Origin: a bacterium
GTDB lineage: Bacteria > UBA9089 > CG2-30-40-21 > SBAY01
Assembly: GCA_040757115.1 (NCBI GenBank)
Contig: JBFLYA010000231.1
Span: 1-5,840 of the forward strand
DNA: 5,840 bases
Reading direction: 5' to 3'
The position numbers and the translations under genes are program-made. Under the pieces are notes generated by a model that saw only the letters and a program-made list of their open reading frames with translations, did no database searches and had not been told where the DNA came from. Of this stretch, positions 507 through 5,840 are shown piece by piece; within the stretch, counting starts at the first letter, position 1; every line of letters starts with the position of its first letter.

Positions 507-563
507 GTTCAACCCAGAATTGTGTGTCGGCGTTGCTCCACACAAATTCTTAATTCGTTAGGC
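507..563 (-). other. attC site (short type) after the brnTA cassette
   Basis: On the minus strand the site opens with GCCTAAC (563-557) and closes with GTTGAAC (513-507). The arms 516-526 and 539-550 pair over 11 bp, with one unpaired A at 546, the kind of extrahelical base that sets strand choice in attC folding. The 12-base tip (527-538) is GC-rich. The antitoxin stop codon TAA occupies 560-558 inside the first core. At 57 nt it is under half the length of the other sites here and shares no obvious loop sequence with them, so it probably came from a different attC lineage. Confidence 0.75.
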
Positions 564-767
564 ATATTGTTTTTGTCTCTTAATAATATCAATTAATGAT
601 CTTAATGCTTGATTTACAGATTCATGGTCAGGGAAAAATTTGATAACATCAGGATCAACAACTACAACATTTGTTCCTTCACAGTATTTTTTTGCGTATT
701 TTCCCTGAATACCTTTACTGAAATCATATTCTTCAAGCATATCTCGATCTTTTTGCATTCTCTTCAT
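558..767 (-). CDS. BrnT-partner antitoxin (BrnA-like)
   Basis: Small protein of 69 residues with a charged N-terminus, an EYDFSKGIQGKYAKKY stretch (about residues 10-25), a beta-like NVVVVDPDVIKFF segment and a C-terminal helix ending in a basic tail. This layout is typical of short antitoxins encoded directly after BrnT-family toxins (family knowledge). It is expected to bind and neutralise the toxin and to repress the operon. I chose the ATG at 767 because AAAGGA lies six bases upstream. An in-frame ATG at 782 with AAAGG nine bases upstream is possible and would add five residues. The gene overlaps the end of the toxin gene by about 35 bases, implying coupled translation. Its TAA stop lies inside the attC core box. 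Confidence 0.8.
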   Translation of the reverse strand: MKRMQKDRDMLEEYDFSKGIQGKYAKKYCEGTNVVVVDPDVIKFFPDHESVNQALRSLIDIIKRQKQYA

Positions 768-1029
768 ATTGTTTCCTTTCATTTTTTGTTGCCTTTCTTG
801 AGCTTATTATTCTAATTTTATCCTCTCTTCCTGTATGAACAGTTACTAACACACGATGTTTAACTGAATTCCCAATTAAAATAAATCTGTCTTCTTGCTC
901 AGAATGTAGAGGATCATAGATTGTTAATGATAGTGTATCGCTAAAAGTTGTGCTGGCTTCATCAAAAGATATCCCATGGACATTTATATTCTTAATTGCT
1001 TTTCTTGGATCCCACTCAAATAATAACAT
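733..1029 (-). CDS. brnT: BrnT family toxin (DUF497), ribonuclease
   Basis: This 98-residue protein has the BrnT signature in order: FEWDPRKAIKN near the N-terminus (4-14), HGISFDEA (18-25), HSEQEDRF (42-49), and the RIISSRKATKNER strand-helix motif (73-85). The length is normal for the family. BrnT toxins are RelE-fold ribonucleases that arrest translation by cutting RNA, and they are held inactive by their antitoxin. Gene order here is toxin first, antitoxin second, as in brnTA. The gene starts 42 bases after an attC core, so it is the first gene of its cassette. I see no strong Shine-Dalgarno before the ATG and no confident promoter. The known autoregulation of brnTA would require one close by. 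Confidence 0.9.
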   Translation of the reverse strand: MLLFEWDPRKAIKNINVHGISFDEASTTFSDTLSLTIYDPLHSEQEDRFILIGNSVKHRVLVTVHTGREDKIRIISSRKATKNERKQYEENAKRSRYA

Positions 1030-1753: not shown

Positions 1754-1792
1754 CGGACAGCTCTGGCTGTTAGGTGCACGCAATGGTTAGGC
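1754..1792 (-). other. Half attC site after the reverse-transcriptase gene
   Basis: On the minus strand it begins with a good GCCTAAC core (1792-1786), then CATTGCGTGCACCT. This matches the opening arm of the sites at 4185 and 1072 (CGCTGCACCTGA). A small hairpin follows (1770-1757, ACAGC, loop CAGA, GCTGT). No matching closing arm or GTTRRRY core occurs in the next 200 bases. The site looks truncated at or just past its tip, close to the heptad element. The core begins 59 bases after the reverse-transcriptase stop codon. Confidence 0.55.
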
Positions 1793-1850: not shown

Positions 1851-3347
1851 TTAATACATCATTGCTTTTTTCTTGAATATTTCAATTTCCTCGGGCTGAA
1901 CAACTTCTGATGCATCATATACCGAACCAACAACTATTTTTGACACATTTAATGCAGATTTTAATTTTTCGCTTGAGATCCAATCATTTACCCAAAGTTT
2001 AGGATTTTCACCATTTACAATTTTGCATATTACTTCATTGCTAGAAAAGGATATTCCAACTGACTTTGGTTGTGTTATTCTTTGCAACCAGATTTCAAGA
2101 TAGCCGTTATAGGGAACACGTGACATCTTATTATGTACTTTCGTCCATAATTTTGTTTTATCTCTTTGGGGAGCAAGTGCGATAAGATGGCTTAGAATAC
2201 CAGCAATAGCAGGAAATGTATCTGGAGAAATAAAACCAATATCAACTGCAATTGCAACTTGTACTTCAAGATCATCTGGTGCTTCTGTTTGTTTTGTAAT
2301 TTTTGTATGGAATTCACTCACTAAACGCCGTAACGTTCCACTATTCGGGAATTGCTGTCCAAATTTATGCAATCGTAAAAGTTGCTTCTGAATTGTCTTT
2401 GCATTATCAAGTCCTAAATCTTGTAAATCAATACCGGCCAATTTATCAGGTTTGATAGCCCCCTCAATGACATTTTTAGTAAGATACGTTTTTGAAACAC
2501 CTACTTTCATCCCAACTGGTCTTAAATTGTCACTAATTATTTTAAGTATCTCTTCTGCACGTTCATCACTATTTGTAAATATCCTATAATCATCACGATA
2601 TCGTAATATGCGAAAATCTGTCGAACCACATAAAGAGTCATTAATTTGTTTGTCTATAAAACCAAGGACGATCTCTGCCACAAAGTCCATTAAAACAGGG
2701 CCCTGTGAAATACCATTTGTTTGACCATATCGGCCCGCCCTTATATGTGAGTCAATTATATTCCCCAAAAGTGAATTATCATTTTTCTTCGCCTTAGCGG
2801 TTTTTATACCATGTAACGCCCATGAAATACTGTGGGTATAAAGAGATGCGTAGCAGTCAATTACGTCTGTATGAAGTAAGTGACTAAACTCCAAAGAATA
2901 TATTAAAGATTGTTGCTCAACGCATTGCCACCAACTTGTAATTTGTTTAGCTACATCTTTTTGATCATCAAGTGACATGACAGGAGCGCTACAACAATAA
3001 ACGACACCATCTTCAAATTCTGCTATCCTATTAGTGATAAACTTCCAATTATCTGGATCACATATAACATTTACCAATGAAACATAAATTACTGGATGTA
3101 TAAGCTCAAGTGGCCTCCAAGCAAATTTGCCATCTTTGTTTGAGATGAAGCTATAGTTTACACCTGAATAATCATTGGGATTGGCAACTTTAAATTCTAA
3201 ATAATGACGCCCATTTAGTATAGTATCAACATCAGATAAAATTTGATCAAAGCTAATGTAGTCTGGTATATCTGCGTTAAAATAACTACTTCCTTTTAAA
3301 AAGTGTTTTTTTGCTTCTTCATTTGTTAGGTCAATTAATCTTTTCAT
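1851..3347 (-). CDS. Reverse transcriptase, Abi/UG (DRT) defence type
   Basis: This 498-residue protein is an RNA-templated DNA polymerase by its motifs. They are an RPLELIHP segment (78-85) ahead of the core, motif A HTDVIDCYASLY with catalytic Asp161, motif B NGISQGPVLMDF (211-222), motif C YRDD (250-253) with the catalytic Asp pair, and a motif D-like VGMKVGVSKT (278-287). Residues from about 310 onward form a helical C-terminal region. No maturase, integrase or nuclease domain is visible, which argues against a group II intron or a retroelement protein. The architecture matches single-protein antiviral reverse transcriptases of the Abi/UNknown-Group class, which block phage by untemplated or ncRNA-templated DNA synthesis (family knowledge). 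I cannot fix the UG number. The ATG at 3347 has AAAGGA six bases upstream. The gene starts 74 bases after an attC and is alone in its cassette apart from the candidate RNA. A retron is less likely: no msr-msd is evident upstream. Confidence 0.85.
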   Translation of the reverse strand: MKRLIDLTNEEAKKHFLKGSSYFNADIPDYISFDQILSDVDTILNGRHYLEFKVANPNDYSGVNYSFISNKDGKFAWRPLELIHPVIYVSLVNVICDPDNWKFITNRIAEFEDGVVYCCSAPVMSLDDQKDVAKQITSWWQCVEQQSLIYSLEFSHLLHTDVIDCYASLYTHSISWALHGIKTAKAKKNDNSLLGNIIDSHIRAGRYGQTNGISQGPVLMDFVAEIVLGFIDKQINDSLCGSTDFRILRYRDDYRIFTNSDERAEEILKIISDNLRPVGMKVGVSKTYLTKNVIEGAIKPDKLAGIDLQDLGLDNAKTIQKQLLRLHKFGQQFPNSGTLRRLVSEFHTKITKQTEAPDDLEVQVAIAVDIGFISPDTFPAIAGILSHLIALAPQRDKTKLWTKVHNKMSRVPYNGYLEIWLQRITQPKSVGISFSSNEVICKIVNGENPKLWVNDWISSEKLKSALNVSKIVVGSVYDASEVVQPEEIEIFKKKAMMY

Positions 3348-3420: not shown

Positions 3421-3553
3421 GCCTAACGATAAAGCTCACCTGCAGCAGGGAGAATTACTACTAAACTTTATAAGCACAATTACCCCTTTGAGATACTACA
3501 AAACTTTCAATCACGGCACAGCCCCCGCCGTCCGCTGCAACGATTTGTTAGAC
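3421..3553 (-). other. attC site between protease and reverse-transcriptase cassettes
   Basis: On the minus strand it opens with GTCTAAC (3553-3547) and closes with GTTAGGC (3427-3421). The arms are weaker than at the other long sites: GCTGCA at 3534-3539 pairs with TGCAGC at 3441-3446. Its 133-nt length equals that of the site at 4185, and the closing segment (core, then AAAGCTCACCTG on the plus strand) is nearly shared with it. The opening core begins nine bases after the protease stop codon. Confidence 0.75.
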
Positions 3554-3561
3554 AAAATACT

Positions 3562-3948
3562 TCATACCTCCAATGTACCCTCACTAAAATCTATCTTTAA
3601 TTTAAGTTCAACCAACGATTTTATCCCCAGCAACCCATCTACATAGCTTTTTGGCGGAAGATCATGAACAACAACCTCAACCTCTTTTATCCTCTTTCCC
3701 AGAACAACTATAGACTCCAGGGTAGCCAAAGGAGCTTTTTCCACTCCACTGGCAGTGATTATTTCTATTCTTTCTTTGGATAACTCTGGTTCTAACCCTA
3801 AAATTTCAGCAGTTTTCCAGGGAATCATAGTATAAGTTGCTCCTGTATCAAGAGCCATCCTTATCTTCTGCTTGGAGTTACTTTTACCCTCCAATAGGAT
3901 AGATAGTATAATTACTGGTGCTTTGGTATTAAATCTAAATTTTGGCAT
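3562..3948 (-). CDS. Retropepsin-like aspartic protease (clan AA)
   Basis: This 128-residue protein has a single retropepsin-type domain: the catalytic loop ALDTGATYTMIP with Asp34-Thr35-Gly36-Ala37, and a later DGLLGI (104-109) that supplies the hydrophobic-hydrophobic-Gly motif. The family acts as a homodimer, each chain giving one catalytic Asp. No signal peptide or membrane segment is evident, so a cytoplasmic soluble enzyme is likely. The substrate is unknown. I prefer the ATG at 3948 (MPKFRFN) because family members usually begin there. The ATG at 3963 is in frame but has AAAGGA only one base away. Either start overlaps the upstream small gene (by 14 or 29 bases), so translation is probably coupled and the two products likely act together. 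Confidence 0.8.
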   Translation of the reverse strand: MPKFRFNTKAPVIILSILLEGKSNSKQKIRMALDTGATYTMIPWKTAEILGLEPELSKERIEIITASGVEKAPLATLESIVVLGKRIKEVEVVVHDLPPKSYVDGLLGIKSLVELKLKIDFSEGTLEV

Positions 3949-4165
3949 AGAATACAACCGCATATCCTTTAGTAGGAATTTTTCCTGTATAGAAATGGTA
4001 GGAGTACTTACCTTTTACTTTTTTCATTGCGTCATAGGTCTCATCTCTATCTTTAGAATGTGTTATTACCTTCAGTTCTGTAGGCTCTCCCAGTTCGTCT
4101 TCCTTCAATACTTCGGCTAATACCCACTCATCTGTGTATTTTTCTTTTACCTCTTTCAATTTCAT
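3935..4165 (-). CDS. Small protein paired with the aspartic protease
   Basis: This 76-residue protein is rich in Lys and Glu, with alternating strand-like and helical stretches. It has an EWVLAEVLKEDE segment (13-24), ELKVITHSKDRDETYDAM (30-47) and a C-terminal GYAVVFYAKI strand. I do not recognise a named family. It is the first gene of its cassette, beginning 19 bases after the attC core. AGGAGG lies seven bases before the ATG, the strongest ribosome site in the window. Its 3' end overlaps the protease gene, and small proteins of this kind often precede such proteases (my recollection, unchecked). It could be a regulator, inhibitor or substrate of the protease, or one half of an addiction-like pair. 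No function can be claimed. Confidence 0.75.
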   Translation of the reverse strand: MKLKEVKEKYTDEWVLAEVLKEDELGEPTELKVITHSKDRDETYDAMKKVKGKYSYHFYTGKIPTKGYAVVFYAKI

Positions 4166-4184: not shown

Positions 4185-4317
4185 GTCTAACGGCAAAGCT
4201 CACCTGCCGCCAACAGTATACACCACAAAAATTTGAAAAACAACTAAACTTTTATAGGGCACATAACTTTGAAAAAACCACCAGCGGTTGGCTCTCAGGT
4301 GCAGCGATGGGTTAGGC
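4185..4317 (-). other. attC site between the MNT-HEPN and protease cassettes
   Basis: On the minus strand it opens with GCCTAAC (4317-4311) and closes with GTTAGAC (4191-4185). The outer arm CACCTG (4201-4206) pairs with CAGGTG (4296-4301), and the inner arm GCCAAC (4209-4214) pairs with GTTGGC (4287-4292). A 2-by-3 internal loop between them gives extrahelical bases. The long loop contains two copies of a TTTGAAAAA-type motif, also present in the site at 1072. The stop codon of the upstream gene (4314-4312) lies inside the opening core. Confidence 0.85.
4215..4243 (-). promoter_or_regulatory. Possible promoter inside the attC loop
   Basis: On the minus strand: TTGTTT (4243-4238), 17-base spacer, TATACT (4220-4215). 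These are 3/6 and 5/6 matches at ideal spacing. Transcription would start near 4208 and give the protease cassette a leader of about 43 bases. The -35 match is weak. Confidence 0.35.
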
Positions 4318-5196
4318 TTTTTTAATTTCCTGTTCAAATTGCTTAAACTTCTCACGACATTTTTTCAATGATAATCTGCGTAGTTTTTTCACTCGCTCAG
4401 CAAGGTATTCAAGTTCTTGTTTTGTTATTTTATAATTCTTGCTGTATCTTGCATCAACATAAGCCTTCTTAAGAAGTTCAAATAATCGCTTTTCTTCACC
4501 CTCTTTTCTTGGAAAGATCTTACAGAAATCCTCGTCAATCTTCTCTATCCGCTTGGTCAGTTTCTCTAAATCATGGGTTCTGGGTTTGTAGGAGGTAAGA
4601 ACAAGGGAAGTGCCAGTGTATAGGTGTTCTGTGGTCTGGTGCAGGCTGAATGCAGCCTCGTTGTTCCAATCTCTTTCAAGCTGAAGCTTGTAAGTTCCAA
4701 ACAGCCTCTTCGCCTTTGGAAACCAAAGAGCAAGATCCTCTTCCGCTAACTTCTTCTTTATCCCAGGAGTAAGCTTCCTTGCCCGGGCTAATTGGAACCT
4801 CTTTGAGTCATAGAGTAAGATGCCTTCTTTTTTGATGTCAGCATAGAAGTATCTGCCAACCGAGAGTTGCTCATTGACATGCTCAATATCTTCAATGATT
4901 AAGCTTACAGGGGTAGGGATTTTACGGCTGATCTGATTCTCTATCTTTCCCCAAATCTTAAAATCCTCAGGCTTTTTCTCATCCTTTACGATCACCATAA
5001 TGTCAAAGTCAGACTCATAGCTGGTAAAGTGCCCCTCTTCTTTATCATAGCGAAAGTCAGAGTCAACAAAGTCTCCCCTGGCATAGCTGCCAAACAGAAT
5101 AATCATCTCTACCTTGGTGGCATGAGAGATGAGATTGACAATAGTCTCTAACTCCCTCTGTTTTCGAAAAGGAAGATGGTCTAAAGTTGTTTTCAT
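4312..5196 (-). CDS. MNT nucleotidyltransferase-HEPN domain fusion protein
   Basis: This 294-residue protein has two domains. Residues about 15-125 are a minimal nucleotidyltransferase with the GSYARG signature (36-41) and the metal-binding Asp63-x-Asp65 (ESDFDIMV). A longer than usual linker separates the two motifs. Residues about 146-275 form an all-helical HEPN-like domain with RTHDL (206-210) and RYSKNYKI (250-257). In paired MNT/HEPN toxin-antitoxin systems, HEPN is an RNase silenced by MNT AMP-transfer. Here both are in one chain, so the protein may be self-controlled or may modify a different target. Position 254 is Asn where a His of an RNase-type R-x-H motif might be expected, so catalysis is doubtful. 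The ATG at 5196 is chosen for GAGG six bases upstream; a TTG at 5208 is in frame. The TAA stop lies inside the attC core. Confidence 0.8.
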   Translation of the reverse strand: MKTTLDHLPFRKQRELETIVNLISHATKVEMIILFGSYARGDFVDSDFRYDKEEGHFTSYESDFDIMVIVKDEKKPEDFKIWGKIENQISRKIPTPVSLIIEDIEHVNEQLSVGRYFYADIKKEGILLYDSKRFQLARARKLTPGIKKKLAEEDLALWFPKAKRLFGTYKLQLERDWNNEAAFSLHQTTEHLYTGTSLVLTSYKPRTHDLEKLTKRIEKIDEDFCKIFPRKEGEEKRLFELLKKAYVDARYSKNYKITKQELEYLAERVKKLRRLSLKKCREKFKQFEQEIKKA

Positions 5197-5218
5197 GATA
5201 ATCCTCAATAATTCAGTA

Positions 5219-5276: not shown

Positions 5277-5769
5277 GAAAAAATTCGACAAAAACCAATA
5301 AATTCTCTATAACTCTAACTGGTTATCATTAACTTTTTACATGATATACAGAAAATAGGATAATTCTGCATGATTAATATACCAATCCATATTCCGCACT
5401 CATCCACTAAGGAAATAATATTTTTAGGACTGATAGGAAATTGCTTTTTTGAGTGTTTTGGGTATTATATCCATTTGTGCCCATTGTGAGGATATTTTAC
5501 CTCAAATTTTATCCTATGTCAACAAAAAATTCGGCTCTTTTGAAAAAATCCAAAAATTAGTATCAAAAATCTGCTCGATTAGATTAGGACAAAATCATAA
5601 AAATGGACATTGTCAATGACGATTTTGGACACACTTATCCTGCATGGTATGCTGATGGGAGAAAACTAGTACTGTGTTAAGTAAATTTTTTCACAGTTTT
5701 TTCTAAAGTTTTACTGATAAAATGACGATAATTCCACGTGGGCATAGAAATTTTAAGGAGGAAAGAATT
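5277..5769. other. Gene-free AT-rich region beside the array
   Basis: No credible gene on either strand. The clearest signals are the minus-strand promoter at 5494-5522, with its 6-bp inverted repeat, and the translation start region of the plus-strand gene near the right end. The short palindrome CATTG-T-CAATG lies near 5607-5617. A weak plus-strand promoter, TTGGAC, 17 bases, TATGCT, lies near 5625-5653. I see no integrase remnants or terminator. Confidence 0.5.
5494..5522 (-). promoter_or_regulatory. Near-consensus promoter overlapped by an inverted repeat
   Basis: On the minus strand: TTGACA (5522-5517), 17-base spacer, TAAAAT (5499-5494), with 6/6 and 5/6 matches. The inverted repeat AGGATA (5489-5494) / TATCCT (5510-5515) spans the -10 and spacer and could be an operator. 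Transcription would start near 5487 and run toward the array through about 260 bases without a gene. Confidence 0.55.
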
Positions 5770-5840
5770 ATGCAAAAAAGATATCCACGTGGTCCAAAAC
5801 CAAATTCATTTGATTTATCAGGAGAAATTCTCAAAACTAT
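5770..5840 (+). CDS. 5' end of an unrecognised protein gene
   Basis: Only 23 codons are in the window (MQKRYPRGPKPNSFDLSGEI and onward). AAGGAGG (5755-5761) stands eight bases before the ATG, so translation is likely. The N-terminus is basic and proline-rich. It is divergent from the cassettes, which is where an integron integrase would lie. However, these residues do not resemble the usual integrase N-terminus and the gap to the core at 5219 is about 545 bases. A transposase or regulator is equally possible. Confidence 0.5.
   Translation, partial: MQKRYPRGPKPNSFDLSGEILKT

Follow-up and report, generated by a model that had tools for sequence, protein, structure and literature searches.

The window, namely the whole stretch of 5,840 nucleotides analysed here, contains an integron cassette array on the minus strand, and a reverse transcriptase (RT) gene is located in this genuine array as the third cassette. 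The array runs in the order of attI-like region, NT-HEPN, attC, PDC-M08A/B, attC, Abi-P2, interrupted attC, BrnT with a short ORF, and a tentative attC. The attC sites were scored with a covariance model, R1, which was built only from attC sites elsewhere in the host genome. C39 is the contig of the same genome that carries an intact integron integrase gene. The features are as follows.

5370, plus strand: start of a truncated integron integrase gene (intI) beside the attI-like region, stopping after a few codons
5221–5386, minus strand: attI-like region, 79% identical to the segment between the start of the C39 integrase and its attI
5276–5248, facing the array: Pc-like promoter TTGACT-17-TAAAGT within the attI-like region, a consensus match only
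4312–5208, minus strand: cassette 1, fused nucleotidyltransferase–HEPN (NT-HEPN) gene (Pfam HEPN 4e-12, Polbeta 2e-9)
4185–4317, minus strand: attC of cassette 1 (R1, 93.5 bits), 84% identical to an attC on C39
3562–4165, minus strand: cassette 2, overlapping gene pair 3935–4165 and 3562–3963 (Pfam, PADLOC)
3421–3553, minus strand: intact attC of the cassette preceding the RT gene (R1, 113.3 bits, E 6e-32)
1851–3347, minus strand: Abi-P2 polymerase gene as assigned by sequence, 498 aa, with Asp161, YRDD 250–253 and predicted priming Tyr30
1786–1792, minus strand: R'' box GCCTAAC of the attC of the RT cassette (motif scan and joined-site test)
1196–1785, no strand: insertion of about 590 bp splitting this attC, with CATT at both junctions
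1496–1717, no strand: MITE-like element ending in inverted repeats of 42 nt, in many copies on many contigs of the genome
1072–1195, minus strand: rest of the same attC (L'', loop, L' and R'; R1, 93.6 bits for 1072–1202)
558–1029, minus strand: cassette 4, BrnT RNase toxin 733–1029 (Pfam BrnT_toxin 4.5e-27) and short partner ORF 558–782
507–563, minus strand: tentative short attC of the BrnT cassette, from a pattern scan only and missed by R1

According to the known structure of attC sites, the extra base located in L'' of the stems gives the orientation of the array. The attC sites on both sides of the RT gene have the same orientation as the gene, and the R' box at 3421–3427 bounds the RT cassette on its upstream side. 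The initial annotation described the gene as bounded by attC sites. The upstream site is intact (113 bits), as described; the downstream site is also present, but it is split by the insertion, which the annotation had missed. R1 contains 24 base pairs, 12 of which show changes on both sides; the shuffles gave 5.6, and none of 500 reached 12. In the window, R1 finds three sites on the minus strand (3421–3553, 4185–4317 and 1072–1202) at 93–113 bits. At least 122 attC sites of at least 50 bits are distributed over many contigs of the host genome, as counted from 150 scored candidates out of 1758. A scan with a generic attC motif, at a threshold of 11, was too insensitive and missed the window's own sites. 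The integrase on C39 scores 368.6 bits against a cut-off of 265, with matching attC sites beside it. An integrase gene is present in the genome and an attI-like region near the array, and the adjacent intI is truncated. Further integron integrase genes or fragments, broken or partial, are found on contigs C30, C63, C118, C114 and C324. In the region 5370–5840, the truncated integrase start gives way to sequence unrelated to it, and a transposase may start at 5770 on the plus strand.

The start codon of cassette 1 is probably the ATG near 5196. Paralogues of NT-HEPN are present in other cassettes of the same genome (C39, C93 and C282) with 74–87% DNA identity, and their loci are L031 5335–6210, L032 1548–2434 and L034 near 3528. 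The gene pair of cassette 2 corresponds to the candidate defence pair PDC-M08A/B of PADLOC and is aspartyl-protease-like. The short partner ORF of BrnT, which has no match in Pfam, PADLOC or NCBIfam, may be an unusual antitoxin.

The part of the downstream attC at 1072–1195 aligns over 123 columns with an attC on C39 at 88.6% identity. When the flanks of the insertion are joined, an attC of 131 nt is restored, the usual length in the host genome. According to folding with RNA parameters, an illustrative 133-nt join has −52.8 kcal/mol, compared with −41.8 kcal/mol for the interrupted form. Beside the MITE-like element, the insertion contains a 300-bp segment (1196–1495) with one other copy in the genome (C143:8702–8997, L030). 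Both copies abut an attC-like end that has no R''. The segment carries a sigma-70-like promoter (TTGACG, 17 nt, TATAAT) and a G+C-rich foldable stretch, and it is possibly one end of an element that targets attC sites. An assignment as an IS110 end was not confirmed: the neighbouring 66-aa ORF on C143 is like the start of an IS110 transposase by eye, and it has no Pfam hit. No Rfam RNA was found in the window or in the insertion. As the downstream attC is interrupted, the present mobility of the cassette is doubtful; with the adjacent intI truncated as well, this copy may have lost the ability to move on its own.

The RT gene is an ORF of 498 residues with an ATG start, free of frameshifts and breaks. 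The palm catalytic aspartates, which the initial annotation had described as intact (Asp161 and YRDD 250–253), are both present in this ORF. RVT_1 (residues 155–290) is the sole Pfam domain, in agreement with the earlier statement that intron and retron partner domains are missing. The protein matches the AbiP2 profile of PADLOC over its full length (residues 1–495) with 621.5 bits (E 2.7e-187), whereas the second-best RT profile, RT_UG14, gives 160.7 bits and the AbiK, Drt4 and Drt6 profiles give 90–157 bits. Among the solved structures, the Abi-P2 polymerase 7r08 is the sole full-length match (phmmer E 2.4e-71, residues 1–491). The identity to the characterised E. coli Abi-P2 is about 30%.

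A tree of 19 RTs was constructed, in which the non-AbiP2 enzymes included AbiK, Drt3b, Drt6, a UG-type RT, a type IV retron RT and a group II-like enzyme from the host genome. Twelve AbiP2 proteins, including the window protein and the characterised Abi-P2 of P2-like prophages, are located on one side of a branch with 99/97 support, and the grouping requires one change on the tree. The sister of the window protein is a protein of Ca. Anammoxibacter (99/98 support). No Rfam intron match was detected in the window, and the tree places the RT apart from the retron and group II-like enzymes. The original assignment to the Abi/UG-type RTs is thus narrowed to Abi-P2, and since the protein is placed with Abi-P2 and away from AbiK, Drt3b, Drt6, the retron and the group II-like enzyme, it withstood the phylogenetic check that had been proposed with it. 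Judged from its sequence, the RT of the window is a full-length Abi-P2 polymerase.

In Abi-P2, Tyr61 is required for priming and Tyr46 is dispensable, and the mutant with Phe in place of Tyr61 is inactive (Figiel et al., PMC9508834). When the N-terminus of the window protein is aligned to 7r08, which requires no gaps, its Tyr30 falls opposite Tyr61 and its His15 opposite Tyr46. Tyr30 is conserved in 11 of the 12 AbiP2 proteins and in none of the seven other RTs. The one AbiP2 protein lacking the equivalent is from Enterococcus, and its N-terminus is poorly aligned. In a second set, the tyrosine is present in all 17. An AlphaFold model of the window protein was obtained with a mean pLDDT of 75; a model from an input of two sequences alone (pLDDT 41) was discarded. 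The best fold match of the model is 7r08, covering both lobes (residues 1–492, Foldseek E 1.3e-25). The structural alignment to 7r08 gives a Z-score of 30.6 over 436 residues with an r.m.s. difference of 22, because the lobes are placed differently in the model. The C-terminal lobe is modelled as helical (helices 300–428), with an unreliable placement relative to the other lobe. Between the window gene and the Anammoxibacter gene, codon positions 1, 2 and 3 differ at 23, 13 and 57%, respectively, and dN is 0.19 with dS saturated. The low dN and the smaller divergence of positions 1 and 2 than of position 3 indicate purifying selection on the protein.

The closest relative found is this Ca. Anammoxibacter AbiP2 homologue (L003, JAIQZQ010000066.1), which shows 73% identity and belongs to another phylum. 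Its gene starts 53 nt behind an attC. About eight copies of that attC are present in the Anammoxibacter genome, and they are shared up to GTT and diverge right after, as predicted for the attC crossover. An integron integrase is also present in that genome. The attC downstream of the Anammoxibacter gene is weakly recognised (13 bits). A plasmid of Agrobacterium carries an AbiP2 copy (L036 5001–6495) that is unannotated and frameshifted and shows 66% identity to the window protein. Other relatives are located on plasmids of Paracoccus, Pediococcus and Enterococcus and in P2-like prophages, and those of Planctomycetota adjoin methylase, helicase or ATPase genes (ATPase by eye). A close-relative scan of viral contigs gave no match, and an alignment-based scan gave 32 loci.

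The initial annotation had proposed to check whether relatives also lie between attC sites. For the nearest relative they do, with the downstream site weak; at the others examined, which are plasmid- or prophage-borne or adjoin restriction genes, R1 detected no attC. As R1 is tuned to the attC type of the host genome, this result is only suggestive of the absence of attC there. The generic motif scan of their flanks was also empty, and its empty results mean little, since it misses the window's own sites.

The window protein is homologous over its full length to Abi-P2 of P2-like E. coli prophages (orf570 of P2-EC30 and orf544 of P2-EC58; PDB 7r08). Both are single-gene systems with the same predicted two-lobed fold, YRDD motif and priming tyrosine. 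The identity is about 30%, and the E. coli genes occupy a phage hot spot, whereas the window gene is located in an integron. The Anammoxibacter homologue is the sister of the window gene and, like it, follows immediately on an attC in a genome with an integrase; it differs in its attC type, its phylum and the weakly recognised downstream site. AbiK, DRT4, DRT6 and UG15 belong to the same wider RT lineage and share the fold of the RT lobe (Z-scores of 21–23); AbiK and Drt6 form separate clades in the tree and have no tyrosine at the position of Tyr30. The defence cassettes of Vibrio cholerae and of mobile integrons, as far as they are described in a published summary (PMC12409362), are likewise defence genes stored as attC-bounded cassettes. 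They differ from the present case, which is an Abi-P2 polymerase in an uncultivated phylum.

According to these comparisons, we consider, with a probability of about 85%, that the integron is of the chromosomal type and that its third cassette encodes an abortive-infection polymerase belonging to the Abi-P2 family. In E. coli, the Abi-P2 protein encoded by ORF570 confers protection against phage T5, and Abi-P2 synthesises DNA without a template (PMC9508834). By analogy, the window protein most likely polymerises DNA from a protein primer and independently of a template, and in this way aborts phage infection. It would form a trimer, attach the first nucleotide to Tyr30, the equivalent of Tyr61 in Abi-P2, and extend untemplated single-stranded DNA via Asp161, Asp252 and Asp253. 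As in Abi-P2, its activity during phage infection would stop the cell or the phage. The gene would be expressed from the promoter next to attI or by read-through; the third cassette is located more than 1.8 kb from the presumed promoter, and thus it may be poorly expressed. The integrase would recognise the folded attC sites and could move and reshuffle the cassettes, with the attC of the RT copy itself interrupted.

Two other explanations concern the non-coding DNA around the gene, and both are very improbable. The RT might use a non-coding RNA template like DRT2 and DRT9, in which case the downstream segment 1196–1495, with its good sigma-70-type promoter and foldable G+C-rich stretch adjoining the RT gene, would be that RNA. 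The segment is, however, outside the coding part and within an insertion, and its copy on C143 is found at an attC-like end again and near no RT. The DNA alignment to the 73% relative spans the gene alone and shows no non-coding similarity, so that no conserved adjacent RNA of the DRT2/DRT9 type was found by this comparison or by Rfam; the family, moreover, is Abi-P2, in which DNA synthesis is template-free (PMC9508834). It is just as improbable that the attC-like repeats are ordinary dispersed repeats of the MITE type and that the RT gene came by another route. The region is indeed repeat-rich and contains a real MITE, but in the repeats the R and L boxes pair, one base is extrahelical and covariation is strong, and each copy is followed by different genes. 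The best matches lie beside the intact integrase gene, an attI-like region is present, and the homology among the Anammoxibacter copies ends exactly at the crossover point GTT.

The remaining alternatives accept the cassette and concern its role. The cassette may be a silent or decaying passenger, stored but unexpressed and not currently protective, and its third position, the truncated intI and the interrupted attC are consistent with this. We regard this as rather unlikely, as the ORF and the catalytic residues are intact and strong purifying selection is seen against the 73% relative, a comparison that is no test of recent decay. It is more unlikely still that, instead of shielding the cell from lytic phages, the protein guards a mobile element or serves in competition between such elements. 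Many relatives are carried by plasmids and prophages, and toxin–antitoxin-like genes are present in the same array; on the other hand, the single homologue that has been tested defends its host cell against T5 (PMC9508834), and the two roles are not exclusive.

According to Darracq 2025 and Kieffer 2025, as summarised in PMC12409362, about 10% of the cassettes of V. cholerae act against phages, and defence cassettes also occur in mobile integrons. The suggestion of the initial annotation that integrons circulate defence RTs is strengthened by the cassette status of the gene and of its nearest relative, but the general idea of defence genes in integrons was already published in 2025 (PMC12409362). 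In the literature searched, which covers Darracq 2025 and Kieffer 2025 through that summary, we found no report of Abi-P2 in an integron. It is well supported that the Abi-P2 cassette joins the known class of integron defence cassettes, and the host group is new. The defence genes carried as cassettes thereby gain a large DNA polymerase encoded by a single gene, and the setting is environmental, uncultivated bacteria, not Vibrio or clinical integrons. The host genome, with its numerous attC sites, is a good place to seek candidate defence genes. As the closest relative found is located in an integron of a different phylum, Abi-P2 defence genes can be cassette-borne. Abi-P2 may have been captured once as a cassette and passed between integrons of different phyla, which would be a regular cross-phylum route for protein-primed defence polymerases; we propose this only tentatively, as possible but not the expected case. 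The two cassette-borne copies in two phyla suggest that this defence is spread by cassette exchange, and not only by prophages and plasmids.
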